Source of the DNA: Bacillota bacterium
GTDB lineage: Bacteria > Bacillota > Sulfobacillia > Sulfobacillales > Sulfobacillaceae
DNA: 49,941 nt
Reading direction: 5' to 3'
Assembly (NCBI GenBank): GCA_021797675.1
Contig: JAJZZH010000052.1
Location: 1-49,941, forward strand
Each line of letters begins with the position of its first letter. Positions within the stretch are counted from its first letter, which is position 1. Of the stretch, positions 40,088 through 49,941 are shown in pieces. The notes beneath the pieces are model-generated. The model worked only from the letters and a program-made list of their open reading frames with translations. It was not told where the DNA came from and made no database searches. Both the position numbers and the translations under genes were made by a program.

Positions 40088-41245
40088 TCAATATAAGCGG
40101 GCCGCTTGCGCCTGTTCGCGAAACTCCTGCCATGCCGCCGTATGGGGATCGACATAGTGCTCGGCGGCACGGAGCCCTTCATCCTGAATCCATTGCTCCA
40201 GGCGATCCGTACCCGCCAGCCGTTGAAAGGCCGACGGTTTGCCGTCTGCCGGCGCAATCCAAAACGCGTCGGGGTAGAGTGCGGAGCATAACGCCAAGAG
40301 TTCCACGGCGGTCCGCACCGGTTCAAGACGCCTCCGATCCCGCACATGCAGCTGAATCCCCCCGCAAATCTCCCCCTGCCAGGGATCGATTTCGGGCACA
40401 AAATAGGTAGGCCGGGCCCGAAGTCCGGGCAAGTCGCGCCGGTTGACGGCGTCGGCCAACCGATGTCCGTCCACGAAAGGAGCTCCCAGCACTTCAAACG
40501 GATGCGTAGTGCCCCGCCCCAAACTCAAGTTGGTCCCCTCAAACAGGCAGGTTCCCGGATATAGCAGTACCATGTCTTCCTGGGTCGTATTGGGAGACGG
40601 CCCGACAAACGACAGTCCGGTGTCCTGCCACAGCATCTCGCGCCGCCAACCCGCCATCGGGACCACGGTCAGTTGATGACCGACGCCACGCACGTTATGA
40701 AACCACCGCGCCAGTTCTCCCATCGTCAAGCCGTGACGATTCGGCATGGCTCCCCCGCCCACGAAGGAAATCCACGGCGGCTCAAGAATATAGCCCTCGG
40801 CCACCAGTCCGCCCAGCGGATTGGGCCGGTCCAGCACCACCACCGAAAGTCCGGCCTCATCCGCCGCCTCCATGCTCAAGGCCAGGGTATTCATGTTCGT
40901 GTAATAGCGGCTGCCGATATCCTGGAGATCGATGACCAGCACATCCACCTCTGCCAACATGTCGGCCGTCGGCCGCCGGGTTTGCCCGTACAGGCTGTAG
41001 GCTGGGAGCCCGCTATGCGCATCCGTTACGAAGGCCACGTGTTCGCCCGGTCGGGCGCTGTTGAGCACACCATGCTCGGGTCCAAAAAGCGCCGTTAACC
41101 GAAACCGTTCATCGGTTTGCAAGCGGTCAATCGTGGGCACCAACGCGCCGTCGGTCGCCGTGTAATTGGCAATGAGGCCCACCCGGCGCCCCTTCATCAC
41201 CGAAGGCAGGTCGTTGCGCAAGCAATCGATTCCTAGCTTTACCAT
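40088..41245 (-). CDS. namZ: DUF1343 / GH171 exo-beta-N-acetylmuramidase (NamZ-like)
   Basis: NamZ-type enzymes cleave terminal MurNAc from the non-reducing end of peptidoglycan chains or from MurNAc-GlcNAc. The 385-residue protein has the DUF1343 signatures: RVGLIANYTATDGALVPTID, ALFGPEHGV (Glu57, the candidate catalytic residue), DVLVIDLQDIGSRYYTNMNT, VVLDRPNPLGG, MPNRHGLTMGELA and LYPGTCLFEGTNLSLGRGT. It starts at ATG 41245, with only a weak GAGG before it; the alternative upstream TTG start has no signal peptide either. So unlike the secreted Bacillus enzyme it is probably cytosolic. It is the last gene after the sugar importer at 41412-44868. Confidence 0.87.
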   Translation of the reverse strand: MVKLGIDCLRNDLPSVMKGRRVGLIANYTATDGALVPTIDRLQTDERFRLTALFGPEHGVLNSARPGEHVAFVTDAHSGLPAYSLYGQTRRPTADMLAEVDVLVIDLQDIGSRYYTNMNTLALSMEAADEAGLSVVVLDRPNPLGGLVAEGYILEPPWISFVGGGAMPNRHGLTMGELARWFHNVRGVGHQLTVVPMAGWRREMLWQDTGLSFVGPSPNTTQEDMVLLYPGTCLFEGTNLSLGRGTTHPFEVLGAPFVDGHRLADAVNRRDLPGLRARPTYFVPEIDPWQGEICGGIQLHVRDRRRLEPVRTAVELLALCSALYPDAFWIAPADGKPSAFQRLAGTDRLEQWIQDEGLRAAEHYVDPHTAAWQEFREQAQAARLY

Positions 41246-41411
41246 ACTTTTTCGCCGTCCTCTGGCCAAACTGTTTTGTCTGCATAGCCCCTCCAAGGAC
41301 GACGGGAGGCCAGTCTATGCCAGCCAGAAGGTACCCCCCCTCTCCCTATGCATATTACCACCGCGCGTTAATGCCGGGCCGCCCGCTCTGCCCGTGCAGC
41401 CCACCCGCCAG

Positions 41412-42257
41412 CTATCCTTTCACCGCCCCTTGGGTCAACCCGGAAACCACCGATCGGCGGAAGACCACGACGAGAATGGCGACCGGTAGAATGGCAACCG
41501 TCGAGGCCGCAAACAGTGTTCCGTAGGGCACTGTGAACTGCGAACCGAACAGGGCGATGCCGACCGGAATCGTGCGAAACGCCGTGTTGCTATCGAAGCT
41601 AATGGCCATCAAGAGTTCCGTCCAGCACGCGGTAAAGGTGAATGTGCCGGCCACGAACAATCCGGGCGTGGCTTGCGGCATAATAATTTGAAACAAGATG
41701 CGCCATCCCGAGGCACCATCAATCCTCCCGACTTCCTCCATTTCCTTGGGGATGGTCAAGAAATAATTCCGCAAAATCCAAATCGCAAATGGCAGATTAA
41801 ACGCCGTATAGGGCACAATCAGCGCTTGATAGCTGTCAAGCCAGCCGAGATCGCGCATCAGCAAATAGAGGGGGGAAATGACGGCAATCTCCGGGAACAC
41901 GGAAATCATCAGCAAGACCACCAAAATTCCCACCCGCCCCCGCATGGGTAGCCGCCCCAACGAGTACCCCGCCATGGATCCAAAGAGCAGGACGCCCGCG
42001 GTAGACGCCAGCGACACCACCGCGCTGTTCAAGATAAAGCGCTGAAAATTGCCGGGGCCAAAGGCAGCCTTGTAATTGGCCATCGTGAAGGGATGGGGAA
42101 AGACGGTCGGCGGAAATTGACCGATGGCCAGCGGTGCCTTAAACGACGTGTCCACCATCCATAACAAAGGCAGCAAAGTGACCACCGCAATCAGGACGGC
42201 AAAAATATTGGTCGCCGTCAACCACCGTCGAATTTTCGAACCGGATTTCTTCATCAC
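41412..42257 (-). CDS. CUT1 sugar ABC transporter permease, MalG type (module 1)
   Basis: The 281-residue protein begins at GTG 42257 (ATG 42254 is the alternative). It has six predicted membrane helices. The EAA motif is EEVGRIDGASGWRILFQIIM, and it has the typical C-terminal end SGLTQGAVKG of MalG-type subunits. It pairs with the permease at 42352. A close paralogue is at 45436. It lies between the MalF-type gene and namZ. Confidence 0.9.
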   Translation of the reverse strand: MMKKSGSKIRRWLTATNIFAVLIAVVTLLPLLWMVDTSFKAPLAIGQFPPTVFPHPFTMANYKAAFGPGNFQRFILNSAVVSLASTAGVLLFGSMAGYSLGRLPMRGRVGILVVLLMISVFPEIAVISPLYLLMRDLGWLDSYQALIVPYTAFNLPFAIWILRNYFLTIPKEMEEVGRIDGASGWRILFQIIMPQATPGLFVAGTFTFTACWTELLMAISFDSNTAFRTIPVGIALFGSQFTVPYGTLFAASTVAILPVAILVVVFRRSVVSGLTQGAVKG

Positions 42258-42351
42258 ACTGCGGCGGCGCCTAACACCGGAGCCTTCGGCCCCAGCCAGA
42301 GGCGCCCCTGCCTCCCTTCTCGTTCCGTTAACCGCCTATCGCTCAGCGTGC

Positions 42352-43302
42352 TTAGGCTGACGATTCGCTGTCGCCGACCTGGACGCGAAATACGCGGAGA
42401 AAAACAAACGCCACCGCCATAACGATCAGGGTAGTGCTCGTTGCAATCGCCGCCCCTGGGCCGAACGACAGGTCCTCAAAGAGGACCTGATAGCTTAAAA
42501 TCGCCAGCGATTCCGTCGCATGTCCAGGGCCGCCTCCCGTCAGCACGAACGGCAGATCAAACACGCCGAACGCTTGCAGGGTGCGAAAGAGCAACGCCAC
42601 GAGCAAGGTGGGTTTGAGCAACGGTAACGTGATCCGCCAAAACGTCTGCCACGCCCCCGCCCCGTCGATAGACGCCGCCTCAAAGATTTCGGAAGAAATC
42701 ATCTGTAAGCCCGCAAACAGAATGATGGCGACAAATGGCGTCGTCTTCCAAATATCCGCCACCATCGTGGAGGCGATGGCCAATACCGGCGTCCCCAACC
42801 AAATCACCAGATGGTTGACGAGGCCTAGTCCCATCACCACGGCGTTTAAGACTCCGTACACGCCGTTGTAAATGAAACTCCACATCTCGGCCGAAATGGC
42901 CGTGATCAACGCCCACGGCAAGAGCAAAATGGCTAGCAAGAATCCCCTCCCATAGGCAAGCTTATGAAGCACCAAGGCAACTCCCATGCCTAAAATGAGT
43001 TCCACGGTCACCGTAATCAAGGTGTAGATTATGGTGAAGCCGAGGGCGTACTGAAAGAGCGAATTCGACCAAACCAGCGAATAATTGGACATGCCGGTCC
43101 ACTGAAATTTAAACCCGCTGTAGGTCAGCGAGATGTTGTTCAAACTCATGAAGATAGAAAACAAGATAGGGAAAATCGTAATACCGGCGATAATGAAAAA
43201 CGCCGGTGCGGAAAATATCCAGCCTTGACGTGCCAACCGCTCCCGGAGCGACCGGTGGCCGCGCGGGGAAACGGTGCGGGTCGGTAAATTCAGTGCCTGC
43301 AT
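42352..43302 (-). CDS. CUT1 sugar ABC transporter permease, MalF type (module 1)
   Basis: The 316-residue protein has an N-terminal basic stretch (HRSLRERLARQGWIFSAPAF) then six membrane helices. The EAA motif is EAASIDGAGAWQTFWRITLP and the typical FVLTGGGPGHATESLAILSY follows. It has a close paralogue at 46254. It is preceded by a 260-base gap with a strong hairpin after the binding-protein gene. Confidence 0.9.
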   Translation of the reverse strand: MQALNLPTRTVSPRGHRSLRERLARQGWIFSAPAFFIIAGITIFPILFSIFMSLNNISLTYSGFKFQWTGMSNYSLVWSNSLFQYALGFTIIYTLITVTVELILGMGVALVLHKLAYGRGFLLAILLLPWALITAISAEMWSFIYNGVYGVLNAVVMGLGLVNHLVIWLGTPVLAIASTMVADIWKTTPFVAIILFAGLQMISSEIFEAASIDGAGAWQTFWRITLPLLKPTLLVALLFRTLQAFGVFDLPFVLTGGGPGHATESLAILSYQVLFEDLSFGPGAAIATSTTLIVMAVAFVFLRVFRVQVGDSESSA

Positions 43303-43462
43303 AGTGCCCTGGTTTTGTCTGACTGAGCCGCTTATCCGGTCTCATGCCCCGCTTGACCAGGTTTCCCTCCTTTGCGAGTGGAATGGTAGAAACAGGGGTT
43401 GGACTTGAGAATCGGAACGGCATCGCTCCCCGTGGAGGACCCCGGGGCCGGGGGGCAGCCTC

Positions 43463-43505
43463 GCCGGCGAGCGGAGGGTCCTTGGATCGCCCTCCGCTCG
43501 CCGGC
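43463..43505 (-). terminator. 16-bp perfect hairpin after the module-1 binding-protein gene
   Basis: GCCGGCGAGCGGAGGG pairs with CCCTCCGCTCGCCGGC without a mismatch around an 11-nt loop. It lies 58 bases beyond the binding-protein stop and 160 bases before the permease start. Confidence 0.65.
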
Positions 43506-43563
43506 TGGACACACCCCTAAGAGCCGACGCGGAGCATGGTCGACTCCTAGCCCACCGGGACGG

Positions 43564-44868
43564 TTACAATCCCTTTTTGGAGACCGCGGCGTGAATCTGC
43601 CGTTCTGCCGCTTTCAAGGCTTGGGCGGGAGATACCGTCCCCGCCAACGCGGCGTTGAGGTTAGAGTAGATGGCCTGACTGACCGCAGGGTAGACGGGAC
43701 TGCCTGAGGGGCGCGAAATCAAGCGTACATTGTGGACGGTCTTCAGCACGGGATTGAGCTTTTGGACTGCCGGATCCTTTTGCACGGCATAATTGGTCGG
43801 GATCTCGGAAAACTTGGTGGCCAGGATGGTTTGCGCCTGGCGACCGGTGATCCATTTGATGAAGGTTAAGTCTTGTGCCAAATGCTTGGAATGCGGGTTC
43901 ACGTAGACGTCCCAGCCGCCGATACAGGAATAACCAGGCCGCTTCTGACCCGGAAACGTGGGCAGGGGAGCGACGCCGACTTTGCCAACCACCTTCGAGT
44001 CCTTGGGATCGTTGGAATTGGACCACGCATAGTCCCAATTCCGCAAAAACGCGGCGTTACCCGCGTCGAACACGTTCATCGCCTGAGGTTCTTCGAAGGT
44101 CGTTTCGGCCGCCGGCGAGATGTGCGAGGTGATCAGCGATCGCAAGAACTTGAGGGCTCGTACCGACTGTGGCGAATCGATCGTCACCTTGCTATAGTTC
44201 TTGTTGAAAACGCTGCCGCCGGCATCGGTCATCACTTCCATCCAATCACAGGTTAAACCCTCATAGTCTGCCCCCTGCCACACGTAGCCAAACTTCACCA
44301 GCTTGCGCTTTTGCAAGAGTTTGGCTTCCTTAACCAACTGCGGCCAAGTCTTGGGGACGGGCAGATGCGCCTTCGTCAGCAAGTCCTTGCGATAGTAGAG
44401 AAAGCCGGCGTCCATAAAGAACGGCGCACCGTACACCGTTCCCTGATAGCTTGCCCCCTTGACCAAACCCGGTGCAAATCGGGTCCAAAAAGACTTCGGC
44501 AGGTACTTGCTGAGGGGAAGCGCGAGGTCATTATGGCCGAATTGCGCCGGCCAGATCACGTCCCCCATGAAGATGTCAGGACTCGTGGCTCCTCCGGAAA
44601 TTGCCGTGGTGAGCGTCGAACGCATGGTATCGGTGTTAGTCGGGGCCGTGTTCAAGTGAACACGAATTTTTGGGTGGGCCCTTTCAAAGGCTTGGATCAT
44701 GGTCTTGCGGACCCCCGTGTCGGTAATCGGGGAGGCGTACCAAACGATGGTAACCGGCTTTTTCAAGGCAGCAGGCGACCGAACGAGGCCGCCCGGAGAA
44801 AATCCAGAGACCGTCGCGGTCAATAGTAAGGATCCCGAAGCCAGCAGCATAACATGGCGAGTTCTCAA
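43564..44868 (-). CDS. Family-1 sugar ABC solute-binding protein (module 1)
   Basis: The 434-residue protein starts at TTG 44868, chosen because GGGAG lies before it with about ten bases; the open frame reaches ATG 44901. A signal peptide is visible (HVMLLASGSLLLTATVSGFS), without lipobox Cys. The mature part has the family-1 pattern TIVWYASPITDTGVRKTMIQ, FERAHPKIRV and YGAPFFMDAGFLYYRKDLL. It is about half identical by eye to the binding protein at 47181. No ATPase is encoded with it; CUT1 importers of Firmicutes often share an MsmK-type ATPase made elsewhere. Confidence 0.92.
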   Translation of the reverse strand: MRTRHVMLLASGSLLLTATVSGFSPGGLVRSPAALKKPVTIVWYASPITDTGVRKTMIQAFERAHPKIRVHLNTAPTNTDTMRSTLTTAISGGATSPDIFMGDVIWPAQFGHNDLALPLSKYLPKSFWTRFAPGLVKGASYQGTVYGAPFFMDAGFLYYRKDLLTKAHLPVPKTWPQLVKEAKLLQKRKLVKFGYVWQGADYEGLTCDWMEVMTDAGGSVFNKNYSKVTIDSPQSVRALKFLRSLITSHISPAAETTFEEPQAMNVFDAGNAAFLRNWDYAWSNSNDPKDSKVVGKVGVAPLPTFPGQKRPGYSCIGGWDVYVNPHSKHLAQDLTFIKWITGRQAQTILATKFSEIPTNYAVQKDPAVQKLNPVLKTVHNVRLISRPSGSPVYPAVSQAIYSNLNAALAGTVSPAQALKAAERQIHAAVSKKGL

Positions 44869-45147
44869 TTCTATCGCTCCCTTGCAATTTAATGTTTCCA
44901 AATCGTCCTTCTAGGTTAAGTTATGAAAAACCAAGAGGCCCCGGCGCGCAGCTTAGGCTACGCTGGGGAGCGGCCAAATATATGGTCAGTGACCGCTGTT
45001 CCAAGCCGCTTGTAGAATGCGTTGCGGCATAATTCGATTCTATTCACAATATTTAGCAGCTCGCCGTACAAATGTCAATAGCACGCTATTCCTTGCTTTT
45101 TCACTTTGTTTCACCGTCAAGGACACCACAGGGCCCATTCTGCTCGC
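44869..45147. other. Upstream region of module 1
   Basis: No gene. Contains the module-1 promoter at 45050-45078 and AT-rich leader sequence of about 170 nt. Confidence 0.4.
45050..45078 (-). promoter_or_regulatory. Promoter of the module-1 sugar importer / namZ operon
   Basis: Minus-strand TTGACA (45073-45078) and TAAATA (45050-45055) are 17 bases apart. The -35 is perfect, the -10 weaker. Confidence 0.5.
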
Positions 45148-45420
45148 TTAAAGATCGGCTCGGAAGACGTCGTGCAATTCCCAGCCGCTCTGCGGCGTGA
45201 TGGCCGGCAGGCATCGGTGCCGTCGAATATAATGCTCTCGTCGGAAGTCTGGCACGACGGTGGGGGCTTTTCGGATACCCCTAATATTTTTTGCCGCTTC
45301 TTCTAGGATTGGTACAACTTCTAAACGAGCAGAATACATGGTTTGGATCAAGAACCGTAGACCGTTCTTGGCGGACCAACAAAACGAATCCGTCGGTCGC
45401 CATACCACGAGGTGATGCAC
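45148..45420 (-). CDS. Short hypothetical frame, possible gene remnant
   Basis: The 90-codon frame starts at GTG 45420, 15 bases after the module-2 permease stop, and reads HLVVWRPTDSFCWSAKNGLR and so on. Its composition looks protein-like, but there is no good ribosome-binding site and no recognised domain. Module 1 carries namZ at the equivalent place, but I see no similarity to it. It may be the remnant of a gene once attached to module 2. Confidence 0.3.
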   Translation of the reverse strand: MHHLVVWRPTDSFCWSAKNGLRFLIQTMYSARLEVVPILEEAAKNIRGIRKAPTVVPDFRREHYIRRHRCLPAITPQSGWELHDVFRADL

Positions 45421-45435
45421 CCAGCCGGCGCGACT

Positions 45436-46257
45436 TCACCCCTTGACCGCCCCCTGGGTTAATCCCGAGACGACGGCGTTGCGGAAAATCAGGACCAAAA
45501 TCGCGATCGGAGCAATAGAGACCATCGAGGCTGCGAACAAATCGCCGTAAGGAACCGTATATTGGGCACCGAAGAGGGCGATTCCCACCGGAATGGTTCG
45601 GTACGGCGTGGAGCTGTTAATGGTCAACGCCATCAAGAATTCGGTCCAGGTCGCGGTGAAGGTAAAAACCGCAGCCGTAAACAGCCCTGGGGTAGCTTGA
45701 GGGATGATGATGCTGACAAACGTGCGGAGGGGATGGGCACCGTCAATCTCGGCCACCTCCTCCATTTCACGGGGAATCGAGAGAAAGTAATTCCGCAGGA
45801 TCCAGATGGCAAAAGGGAGGTTAAACGCCGTGTAGGGCACAATCAGCCCTTGGTAACTGTTGAGCCATCCCAAGAGGCGCATTAACAGATAGAGGGGAGA
45901 AATGACGGCAATTTCCGGAAATACGGAAACGACCAAGAGGGCCATCATGATCCCGATCCGCCCTCGCACCGGAAATCGGGCGAGAGCGTAACCCGCACTT
46001 GATGCCAGGACTAACACGACTAGGGTGGATGCCACGGCGACGATGACGGAGTTCATCAGGTAGTGCTGAAAATCGAAATAGGTAAAACTGGTACGGTAGT
46101 TCATCCAGGTAAACGGATGCGGAAACCACTGCGGCGGCGTTTGGCCCACCGTAAACGGCGTCTTAAAAGACGTGATCAGCATCCAATACAACGGCGCGGC
46201 GACGAAGAGCGCCAGCAACAGCGCACCCATCCGAACCAGCATCGTGTCGCGTTTCAA
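45436..46257 (-). CDS. CUT1 sugar ABC transporter permease, MalG type (module 2)
   Basis: The 273-residue protein starts at TTG 46257; AGGAGG lies seven bases before it and the TTG overlaps the stop of the MalF-type gene (TTGA), so coupling is likely. It has six membrane helices and the EAA motif EEVAEIDGAHPLRTFVSIII. It ends NAVVSGLTQGAVKG. It is closely paralogous to 41412-42257. The open frame extends to 46293 without support. Confidence 0.9.
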   Translation of the reverse strand: MKRDTMLVRMGALLLALFVAAPLYWMLITSFKTPFTVGQTPPQWFPHPFTWMNYRTSFTYFDFQHYLMNSVIVAVASTLVVLVLASSAGYALARFPVRGRIGIMMALLVVSVFPEIAVISPLYLLMRLLGWLNSYQGLIVPYTAFNLPFAIWILRNYFLSIPREMEEVAEIDGAHPLRTFVSIIIPQATPGLFTAAVFTFTATWTEFLMALTINSSTPYRTIPVGIALFGAQYTVPYGDLFAASMVSIAPIAILVLIFRNAVVSGLTQGAVKG

Positions 46258-47171
46258 GCCATCCCCTCCTCCGCCATGCCTCGGAAGACCCACAGAAACA
46301 CCATAGCCATGATCAGGACTAAGGCTGTCGTACTTGCAGCCACGGCGGCTCCCGGACCAAAGCTCAAATCCTGAAACATCACCTGATAGCCGAGGACGGC
46401 AATGGACTCGGTAGCGGTCCCCGGGCCGCCCCCAGTCAGGACAAAGGGCAGGTCAAACAAGCCAAACGCCTGCAGAATACGAAATAGCGCGGCCAACGAC
46501 ATGGTGGATCGAATTAAGGGCAACTGAACCCGCCAGAAAATCTGCCAAGCGGTGGCCCCGTCCATATGGGAGGCCTCGATGACTTCCACCGGAATCATTT
46601 CCAGACCCGCTAGCACCAAAATGGCGACAAAGGGCATCGTCTTCCAGATATCGGCGAACATGGTTGACGCGATGGCCAATTGGGGAAACCCGAGCCAGAC
46701 CACGGGAGTGTGAATGATGTGCAGGGTCAGCAAGATGGCATCGAGCACCCCATAGACACCGTTGTAAATATAGCTCCACATTTCCGCTGAGATGACCGTA
46801 ATCAACGACCACGGGAGCAGCAAGAGCGCCAGCAGACTGGAACGCCCCCACCGTAATCTTTGCAGGATAAGCGCCGCCAGGGTGCCCAGGATGAGTTCGG
46901 CCAGCACGGTGATCGCCGCATAGACCACGGTGAATCCGATGGCATAGCGGTAGAGTCCGCTGGCCCAAAGCAGGCGGTAATTGCTGAGTCCGGCCCAGTG
47001 AAAGCGAAACCCGTGCAACGTCAAATGGATATGGTTGAAACTCATGTAAATCGAATAGACGATGGGGAACAGGGTCACCGCCGAGACGACGATTAACGCC
47101 GGCGCCATGAATCCCCATCCCGTCCGCGCCCGCCGCCTCTTGATCCCAGTTAGCCCTCGAACCGATGCCAC
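46254..47171 (-). CDS. CUT1 sugar ABC transporter permease, MalF type (module 2)
   Basis: The 305-residue protein starts at GTG 47171, nine bases after the binding-protein stop. It has a basic N-terminus (GIKRRRARTGWGF), six membrane helices, EAA motif EASHMDGATAWQIFWRVQLP, and FVLTGGGPGTATESIAVLGY. It is paralogous to 42352-43302. The ribosome-binding site is weak, so translation may depend on coupling to the upstream gene. Confidence 0.9.
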   Translation of the reverse strand: MASVRGLTGIKRRRARTGWGFMAPALIVVSAVTLFPIVYSIYMSFNHIHLTLHGFRFHWAGLSNYRLLWASGLYRYAIGFTVVYAAITVLAELILGTLAALILQRLRWGRSSLLALLLLPWSLITVISAEMWSYIYNGVYGVLDAILLTLHIIHTPVVWLGFPQLAIASTMFADIWKTMPFVAILVLAGLEMIPVEVIEASHMDGATAWQIFWRVQLPLIRSTMSLAALFRILQAFGLFDLPFVLTGGGPGTATESIAVLGYQVMFQDLSFGPGAAVAASTTALVLIMAMVFLWVFRGMAEEGMA

Positions 47172-47180
47172 GTTCAGGGC

Positions 47181-48539
47181 CTACAGGCCGCGACCGGCAA
47201 GATCCGCGCCTATCTCTCGGCTCGCTCGGCTAATGGCGGTGGTCGGAGAAATTTGCCCGGTTAACGCCGCGTTGACATTTTGGTACAAGGCCTGGCTCAA
47301 CTGCGGGTAGAGCGGAGTGCTCGACGGTCGGGCAATTAAGCGCACGCGGGCGACAATGCGCAGCACGGGATTCTTCCGGCGGACGCTCGCCTCCCGTTGG
47401 ACGGCGTAATTCGTCGGCACCTCAGAATACTTCTTGGCCAGGATGCGCTGGGCCGGCACGCTCGTCATCCACCGGATGAATGTCAGCGCCTGTTTCAAGT
47501 GATGGGTATGCGGATTCACGTAAAGGTCCCAGCCGCCGATACAGGAATAACCAGGCTGCTTGTCGCCGGCAAAGGCCGGCATCGGCTCGACGCCCACCTT
47601 GCCAACCACTTTGGTGCCGGGGGTTTGAGAATTGGACCAAGCGTAATCCCAGTTTCGCATAAAGGCAGCATCCCCCGCGTCAAAGGCGTTCATCGCGTCG
47701 GGCTCCTGGTACGTGCTGACCGCCGCCGGTGACACGCCCCGGGTAATCAGCGAACGCATGAAGGCGACAGCGGAGATCGCCTGCGGACTGTTCAGCGTCA
47801 CCTTGGTACCCGCCGCATTGAGGACCTTGGCCCCAGAATCCGCCAGAAATTCCATCAAATCACAGGTCAGACCTTCGTAGGACGCGCCTTCCCAAACGTA
47901 TCCATAGCGCACCAGATGTTTGGCTTGCAGGGTCTTGGCATCCGATGCCAGCTGCTGCCAAGTATGCGGCACGGACAATCCGGCCTTGCTCAGCAAATCC
48001 TTGCGATAATAGAGGAATCCGGCATCCATGAAAAAGGGCGCCCCGTAAACCTTTCCCCGATAACTGGCGCCCGTCACCAGCCCGGGTGCGAACCGCGACC
48101 AAAATCCGTGAGCAAAATATTTGCTGAGATCGACCGCCAAACCGGAGTGTGCAAACTGCGCCGGCCAAATCACATCCCCCATGTACACATCGGGGGTGGC
48201 CGACCCGCCCTCAATCTCGGTGCTCAAGGTGGTTCGGGTCGTGTCGGTATTCGTCGACATAGTGGTCAACTTGACGCGTATGTTGGGGTGAGACCTTTCA
48301 AACGCGCGAACCATCGTCTGGCGCGTGCCGGTCTGGGTAATCGGCGATGCGGCCCAGTCGATGGTCACCCCTTTGCCACCCTTCAACGGGCGATGGTGCT
48401 TACCAGATTGTTTCACCACCGCCGCCTTGCGCTGAGCCGATGGTCCGGCGCCAAATAGCCCACAGCCAGATACCGCACCAAGAACGCTCATCCCCCCGAT
48501 TACGATGATGGTCGCCACGTTTGCCTTTCCTTTGGCCAT
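47181..48539 (-). CDS. Family-1 sugar ABC solute-binding lipoprotein (module 2)
   Basis: The 452-residue protein starts at ATG 48539, with GAGGAGG eight bases upstream; the frame is open to 48668 but that extension has no site. It has a signal peptide with lipobox VSGC (Cys26), so it is membrane-anchored. The module-1 paralogue lacks a lipobox. The mature part shares long conserved stretches with the module-1 protein, for example VYGAPFFMDAGFLYYRKDLL, YSCIGGWDLYVNPH and EVPTNYAVQ. Both probably bind related sugars; the ligand cannot be read from sequence. The permease gene follows after nine bases, without the hairpin seen in the other operons. Confidence 0.92.
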   Translation of the reverse strand: MAKGKANVATIIVIGGMSVLGAVSGCGLFGAGPSAQRKAAVVKQSGKHHRPLKGGKGVTIDWAASPITQTGTRQTMVRAFERSHPNIRVKLTTMSTNTDTTRTTLSTEIEGGSATPDVYMGDVIWPAQFAHSGLAVDLSKYFAHGFWSRFAPGLVTGASYRGKVYGAPFFMDAGFLYYRKDLLSKAGLSVPHTWQQLASDAKTLQAKHLVRYGYVWEGASYEGLTCDLMEFLADSGAKVLNAAGTKVTLNSPQAISAVAFMRSLITRGVSPAAVSTYQEPDAMNAFDAGDAAFMRNWDYAWSNSQTPGTKVVGKVGVEPMPAFAGDKQPGYSCIGGWDLYVNPHTHHLKQALTFIRWMTSVPAQRILAKKYSEVPTNYAVQREASVRRKNPVLRIVARVRLIARPSSTPLYPQLSQALYQNVNAALTGQISPTTAISRASREIGADLAGRGL

Positions 48540-48574
48540 GACCGATTCCTCCTCGTGATCCACGCTGACATGTT

Positions 48575-48583
48575 CGTATACCA
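48575..48583 (-). promoter_or_regulatory. Possible extended -10 of the module-2 operon
   Basis: Minus-strand TGG-TATACG lies about 40 bases upstream of the ATG at 48539. The -35 is not convincing. Confidence 0.3.
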
Positions 48584-48678
48584 ATCCCGCTGTGAAGCGA
48601 CGACAAGGGCTAGTCTTCACCAACTTGACCATTTCATGCAAAACGGGGACAGATTCATCCGACCTCACGGCGCGGAAA

Positions 48679-48760: not shown

Positions 48761-49941
48761 GTGAAGACAACACTGACCGCCAAGCTCAAACTGAATACGA
48801 CATCCGAGAGTGATCAAAGCCTTCTGGATACTGCCAGGGCCCAGCAAAGCGCCCTCAACGATACCAGCCGAGTGGCCTTTGAGCATGGCAAGCTGTCCAA
48901 CCAAGTTAAGCTCCACAGACTGGTCTCCCAGCACTGCGGGAGCGTTTTGCCTTACCGTCCCAACTCGCTGGTTCCGTATCGAGACAGGTGGGATCAACCT
49001 ACCAAGGGTTGTGGACCCAGGGTCAAGCAAAATGCCTCACACCGAAAGAGCGGCGATACCAAGCAGCGGTACAAGGGTTTGGACAAAGCTCCGGTCTTCA
49101 CCTCGAACCCTACCACCTTTACCTATCAGCGGGATTACCGATTCAAGTCAGACAGCCAGGTATCCGTCACCACCCTGAAGGGGCCTTGGGTTCTCGGTGA
49201 TGAAGGGTACCACCAACCCCTAGACCGGATCCAAAACGGTTCTTCCGGTGGCGTAACCTTTGGTGCGGCCAAGCTCTGGCGTGATCCCAAAACCCAAAAG
49301 TTTTACCTATGGGTCAGCCTGGCGGGGGAAACCCCTGATCCCACCCCTGAAACCCTCATGGGCATCACGGGAGCGGATTTAGGACAACGGTCCTTGGCGG
49401 TGACCACCACCCCCAGCAATAGGACTCAATTCTTCCATGGAGGAGCCATTCGTCACCCGGGCGAGGCATTGCAGCGGGTGCGTTCACGTCTTCCGTCAAA
49501 AGGCACTCGAGGGGCCAGGAGGCGGCTACGCCCATTGCACCTTCGAGAGAGACGGTTTAAGGCCGACGTGAACCACCGAATTGCCAAAACTATTGTGGAG
49601 CCTGGTTTCCTGATCGGCCTGGAGGACCTGACGCATATCCGTGAACGCACCAAAACCCAAGGCAAGAAGCATCGCCGTAAACGAGCGAAGGGGGCCTTGG
49701 CGGAACGCGGTGCTTTCGTAGCCTACACGTCACCAATTGCAGGAGGGTTAGCCGTCCGTGGGGATGCGGATTACACCTCCCAGGGTTGCCCGAATTGCGG
49801 CAACGTCGATGTGAAGAACCGTCCAAAGCAGGGACTGGTGTTCCGCTGTACCCTCGGTGGGTTTACCCTCCACGCCGATCTGGTGGGTGCCCGCAATGTC
49901 ACCCTACGAACGCTCCTTATCCGGCAGGACTGGATGGGGAC
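48761..49941 (+). CDS. tnpB: TnpB (IS605/IS1341-type RNA-guided nuclease), runs off the right edge
   Basis: The frame from GTG 48761 stays open for 393 codons to the window end. It begins VKTTLTAKLKLNTTSESDQS, the N-terminus of one large TnpB group. RuvC motif I is GADLGQRSLAV (Asp206), motif II LIGLEDLTHIRE (Glu288), motif III HADLVGARNVTL (Asp373). The zinc finger has CPNC (Cys343, Cys346) and Cys363, but the fourth ligand position (366) is Gly. The stretch before RuvC III (about 310-330) lacks the usual YSKWSF-like segment. So the gene may be a decaying copy although no stop or frameshift is seen. No tnpA lies nearby. The omega-RNA would be past the window end. Confidence 0.82.
   Translation, partial: MKTTLTAKLKLNTTSESDQSLLDTARAQQSALNDTSRVAFEHGKLSNQVKLHRLVSQHCGSVLPYRPNSLVPYRDRWDQPTKGCGPRVKQNASHRKSGDTKQRYKGLDKAPVFTSNPTTFTYQRDYRFKSDSQVSVTTLKGPWVLGDEGYHQPLDRIQNGSSGGVTFGAAKLWRDPKTQKFYLWVSLAGETPDPTPETLMGITGADLGQRSLAVTTTPSNRTQFFHGGAIRHPGEALQRVRSRLPSKGTRGARRRLRPLHLRERRFKADVNHRIAKTIVEPGFLIGLEDLTHIRERTKTQGKKHRRKRAKGALAERGAFVAYTSPIAGGLAVRGDADYTSQGCPNCGNVDVKNRPKQGLVFRCTLGGFTLHADLVGARNVTLRTLLIRQDWMG

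Follow-up and report, generated by a model that had tools for sequence, protein, structure and literature searches.

Introduction

The NamZ (GH171) exo-β-N-acetylmuramidases studied so far are exported enzymes, and the locus described here raises the question of why a leaderless member of this family should be encoded directly behind a CUT1-type sugar importer, and whether that importer brings in the sugar that the enzyme splits. An earlier note on this DNA had answered that a MurNAc-GlcNAc disaccharide would be imported first and split inside the cell, and that the transporter would be specific for muropeptide sugars. We have followed this proposal through the window (the whole analysed stretch of 49,941 nucleotides from a member of the Sulfobacillaceae), the rest of its genome (G000), its bacterial family and a wider set of phyla. 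The features concerned, all on the minus strand, are as follows.

40088..41245 (-): NamZ (GH171), leaderless (cytosolic) predicted exo-beta-N-acetylmuramidase, 385 aa; Pfam NamZ_N/NamZ_C, homologs PDB 4k05 and 4jja
41246..41411 (-): gap between permease A2 and NamZ, 166 bp
41412..42257 (-): CUT1 permease A2 (MalG-like); Pfam BPD_transp_1; 66-69% identity to permeases of GH31-linked clusters
42352..43302 (-): CUT1 permease A1 (MalF-like); Pfam BPD_transp_1; 62-67% identity to permeases of GH31-linked clusters
43564..44868 (-): CUT1 solute-binding protein A (SBP-A), trehalose/maltose-binding type by motifs and tree, no lipobox cysteine; SBP_bac_1; best PDB matches 1eu8, 6dtq, 6j9w
45436..46293 (-): CUT1 permease B2, paralog of A2 (profile match)
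46254..47171 (-): CUT1 permease B1, paralog of A1 (profile match)
47181..48668 (-): CUT1 solute-binding protein B (SBP-B), paralog of SBP-A, with lipobox cysteine (profile match, alignment, tree)

Organization of the locus

The gene order given in the earlier note, with NamZ following a binding protein and two CUT1 permeases on the same strand, is borne out by the Pfam matches, and the importer has the SBP_bac_1-type binding protein and the two BPD_transp_1 permeases of its class. There is no ATPase in the window cluster; one UgpC/MsmK-type ATPase with OB_MalK is encoded on contig C70, beside ribokinase and nucleosidase genes. Just upstream of set A, at 45436-48668, lies a second CUT1 set (B), absent from the earlier note and 62-69% identical to A, and the tandem sets (41412-48668) probably arose by duplication and divergence. 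At the very end of the window, the open frame 48761-49939, which matches Cas12f1-like TNB and, weakly, OrfB_IS605, is a probable TnpB-type gene.

Within set A, the gaps are 261 bp between SBP-A and permease A1, 94 bp between A1 and A2, and 166 bp between A2 and NamZ; in the sequence of the first, a G+C-rich hairpin is visible. The single promoter candidate formerly placed upstream does not rise above chance, given that our promoter/terminator scan returned 4 promoter-like sites against 3.7 expected. A single transcript from SBP-A to NamZ is possible.

SBP-A reads SGFS where SBP-B and the orthologs carry the lipobox Cys. The same is seen in the sister species G003, and this loss is therefore no sequencing error; SBP-A may be released or otherwise anchored.

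A leaderless NamZ, common in the family and beyond

Both Pfam domains of the window NamZ are complete (NamZ_N, E 2e-72, profile positions 1-201 of 203; NamZ_C, E 2e-45, 1-152 of 152), the closest solved structures are PDB 4k05 (E 5e-72) and 4jja (E 3e-47), and all alignment columns invariant among relatives in the core motifs PEHG, RHG..GE, SPN and EG.N.S.GRGT are present. It shares these complete domains, and strong similarity over ~345 residues, with B. subtilis NamZ and T. forsythia NamZ1/2 (GH171; 4k05, 4jja); it differs from exported NamZ, as in B. subtilis, by having no signal peptide. The NamZ domain begins at residue 1 counted from the ATG, and the ~20 residues of in-frame extension 5' of it (GLPSSLEGLCRQNSLARGRRKS) are hydrophilic, so neither start choice gives a signal peptide as judged by the hydropathy of the N-terminal stretch, whose top 12-residue value is 0.34 over its whole length. 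The statement that this DUF1343/GH171 gene lacks a signal peptide thus holds from both starts, and the enzyme is cytosolic and very likely active in peptidoglycan recycling.

This feature is not peculiar to the window. NamZ is present in 26 of the 34 genomes of the bacterial family, where 20 of 27 NamZ frames start no more than 3 residues from the domain; in the wider survey across many phyla, 44 of 73 start at most 14 residues from it and 26 of 73 have at least 30 residues ahead, these 73 being the best-scoring matches to related proteins, so that the fractions are no census. Cytosolic NamZ is real, but it is common. In many relatives it adjoins genes for a PIG-L deacetylase, GNAT proteins and a GH3 NagZ-like enzyme, often with Dpp-type transporter genes as well. 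One such family cluster is L043 7738-13387, where a PIG-L-type deacetylase and GNAT acetyltransferases are kept directly ahead of NamZ and NagZ.

The binding protein and the genomic company of its homologs

The best PDB matches of SBP-A are the trehalose/maltose-binding protein (TMBP) of Thermococcus litoralis (1eu8, E 4e-68), TmMalE3 (6dtq, E 2e-67) and the Thermus alpha-glycoside-binding protein (6j9w, E 1e-48). SBP-A and SBP-B align with these three proteins over nearly their full length and keep the motifs common to them (DV.W, D[AS]G.LYYRK, YEGL.C, RNW.YA, GGW and RP), as do the GH31-linked orthologs of SBP-A, and the shared motifs are not kept in the binding proteins of NamZ/MurQ clusters. 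In the tree, SBP-A groups with GH31-linked binding proteins (91/83) inside a 97/100 clade that includes SBP-B, apart from the NamZ-cluster proteins; the long-branch Bacillaceae and Chloroflexi sequences have unreliable positions and were left out of our conclusions. Tree and motifs alike place SBP-A outside the clade of the CUT1 proteins found in NamZ/MurQ clusters of the same bacterial family. In the trehalose binder LpqY, the contacts to the ligand include those of an Asp, an Asn and a Trp, of an Arg in the hinge and of the backbone of a Gly (PMC7949145), and the motifs of SBP-A that would correspond to these contacts look conserved. Judged by its sequence, SBP-A belongs to the trehalose/maltose group (TMBP, TmMalE3, Tt-alphaGlyBP), from whose characterized members it differs by the missing lipobox cysteine and by an alpha-glucoside binding that is, in its case, predicted.

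The neighbours of homologous transporters point in the same direction. G031, G020, G025 and G012 have orthologs of the whole transporter (62-71% identity), each with a GH31 alpha-glucosidase gene behind it and, wherever the contig extends far enough, a ROK-type regulator ahead of it. In a fifth ortholog, that of G015, the position directly downstream is not taken by GH31. Seven more distant SBP-A homologs (35-39%) come from the same phylum but from outside the family: four of them have GH31, GH65 or GH13 genes nearby, two an ADP-glucokinase-like gene (one of these scanned, the other judged from gene order) and one neither, with no NamZ near any of the seven. It counts against an alpha-glucoside role that no close ortholog of the linked GH31 was found near the window transporter, the best match in its genome having 29% identity; the genome does carry GH13, GH15 and GH31 genes.

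The NamZ locus in relatives

Five genomes share a recognisable gene frame around NamZ: G000, G003, G005, G008 and G009. The last two have the order HAD-NamZ-unknown-leuB, with no sugar transporter. In G005, transporter B (SBP-B, permB1, permB2) is followed by HAD, NamZ and an unknown gene, with gaps of ~32, 18 and 8 bp after permB2, and this tight packing suggests co-transcription from SBP-B to the gene after NamZ. G000 and G003 carry transporter B, transporter A and NamZ, the HAD gene being absent; no remnant of it was found between permease and NamZ in either the window or G003. The permease-NamZ spacing is not conserved, with 166 bp in the window, ~400 bp in G003, and diverged intergenic sequence. 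Since gene order differs across these five genomes, the transporter is a variable part of the NamZ locus. The search for the same gene order elsewhere, proposed earlier, thus gave a divided answer, with importer B beside NamZ in three genomes and no transporter in two. The gene directly after NamZ in three relatives (L036 7484-8320, L034 7891-8802, L035 11111-12022) is missing in the window genus, and the one of the three that was scanned had no Pfam match.

The SBP-B clade (G000, G003, G005) is seen only at NamZ loci, and its staying by NamZ in two genera is what argues most against the neighbourhood being due to chance alone. One way to read it is a single scavenging response, for instance to dead cells, in which the import of alpha-glucosides and the processing of muropeptide sugars are regulated together, with the HAD phosphatase and NamZ expressed behind the importer. 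The conserved co-location and the compact order SBP-B-permeases-HAD-NamZ in G005 favour such a response, but the unconserved gap ahead of NamZ in the window genus, the absence of the HAD gene there and the absence of the whole arrangement in G008 and G009 weigh against it, and we hold it to be unlikely.

Peptidoglycan recycling genes elsewhere in the genome

Among MurNAc-processing genes (MurQ, NagZ, kinase), none accompanies NamZ in the window cluster, and MurQ, NagZ and MupG are found on other contigs. MurQ, scoring over the equivalog cut-off, is on C192 beside a Dpp operon; a second, paralogous NamZ is on C166 with MupG, a Dpp-type binding protein, ATPases and a ROK regulator; and there are NagZ-like GH3 genes besides. 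The genome is assembled in 242 contigs with 3.1% contamination, and the assignment of all such genes on other contigs, including the ATPase of C70, depends on correct binning. The murQ gene and the MsmK-type ATPase that the earlier note proposed to look for elsewhere in the genome are located on C192 and C70. A cytosolic peptidoglycan recycling route is present, equipped with Dpp-type importers which, to go by gene order, would carry the muropeptides. Two MurQ fusions also occur in this genome (L103 6940-8790 and L104 587-2497, on C193 and C205), of 616-636 aa with the MurQ domain in the C-terminal half.

Loci that fit CUT1-fed MurNAc scavenging

A far better fit to the idea of MurNAc-GlcNAc import than the window locus comes from another genome of the same family, G020. 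Its compact minus-strand cluster (L041 3883-18877) encodes a BadF-type kinase, RpiR, MurQ, a beta-lactamase-like protein, two CUT1 permeases, a CUT1 binding protein, NamZ, an unknown protein, a second NamZ, NagZ, AnmK, and NagA-like and NagB-like proteins, and stands out as a strong candidate for a cytosolic MurNAc/GlcNAc pathway supplied by a CUT1 importer. For its binding protein, encoded at L041 11711-13054, the predicted ligands are saccharides with MurNAc or GlcNAc in them. It resembles the window in joining a CUT1 importer to leaderless NamZ, but its importer belongs to another CUT1 clade and it has the full compact amino-sugar pathway that the window is without. The same genome holds both kinds of importer, the alpha-glucoside one with GH31 at 2.13 Mb and the other CUT1 importer with NamZ, NagZ and MurQ at 2.24 Mb, ~110 kb apart.

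Outside the family, seven NamZ have same-strand CUT1 permeases nearby (Oceanobacillus, two Bacillus records, Thalassobacillus, two Chloroflexi and Treponema), and all seven are leaderless. These loci (L118, L119, L120, L122, L129, L131 and L185) include some with GH3, MurQ or RpiR-like genes, as labelled by quick custom-built profiles that make the gene names provisional. Uptake of MurNAc-GlcNAc ahead of its cleavage in the cytosol has a known precedent in the MurP-MupG route of S. aureus (PMC6262408), which employs a PTS transporter in place of a CUT1 importer and the 6-phospho-muramidase MupG in place of NamZ. Homologs of MupG also occur elsewhere in the window genome.

Discussion

Most likely, with a probability of roughly 0.75, the window holds two functions side by side that are functionally unlinked, namely a predicted alpha-glucoside importer and a cytosolic NamZ of general peptidoglycan recycling. 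We go no higher than this because the binding specificity is deduced from sequence relationships and because the neighbourhood of transporter B is conserved. Transporter A, like its tandem paralog B, would be a CUT1 importer that takes up alpha-glucosides (disaccharides of the trehalose/maltose type), both probably powered by a shared UgpC/MsmK-type ATPase, that of C70, and the imported sugar would probably be split inside by alpha-glucosidases encoded elsewhere (GH13, GH31, GH15). Separately, muropeptide sugars would probably enter by importers of the Dpp/Opp type, of which C166 and C192 carry examples, NamZ would remove MurNAc from their non-reducing end in the cytosol, and MurQ and NagZ would then pass the sugars towards GlcNAc-6-P.

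The reading of the earlier note, in which MurNAc-GlcNAc or a similar muropeptide sugar comes in through the CUT1 importer for cytosolic NamZ to split and for MurQ and others to finish, is improbable for this locus. In its favour are the same-strand adjacency in G000, G003 and G005, tight in the last; the leaderless NamZ in a genome that also has MurQ, a NagZ-like GH3, MupG and an MsmK-type ATPase; and the seven out of seven leaderless NamZ beside CUT1 permeases in the wider survey, which make the general scheme plausible. Against it stand a trehalose/maltose-type binding protein that has kept the motifs shared by that group, orthologs accompanied by GH31 and distant homologs by GH31/GH65/GH13, the NamZ locus of G008 and G009 that does without a transporter, and the different clades of the CUT1 proteins in clear NamZ-MurQ clusters. 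What survives of the earlier mechanism is therefore the cytosolic side, and what does not is the specificity of the transporter for muropeptide sugars; the note itself had named a binding protein for an unrelated sugar such as maltose as the finding that would speak against it, and SBP-A is predicted to be just that. Also improbable is the recruitment in two genera of transporter B, and perhaps A, from the trehalose/maltose type to MurNAc-GlcNAc uptake feeding cytosolic NamZ, with the change masked by conserved pocket motifs, even if a few pocket changes can alter a substrate.

In summary, the window is best read as an alpha-glucoside importer lying next to an unrelated recycling enzyme, and the general scheme of CUT1 import with cytosolic NamZ fits other loci and not the window transporter. 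The window thus serves as a case where a reasonable guilt-by-association reading can single out the wrong transporter. If the CUT1 importers of the G020-like, Bacillaceae, Chloroflexi and Treponema loci do carry MurNAc-GlcNAc, they would form an ABC-type equivalent of MurP-MupG in staphylococci, and these loci are good objects on which to test it.
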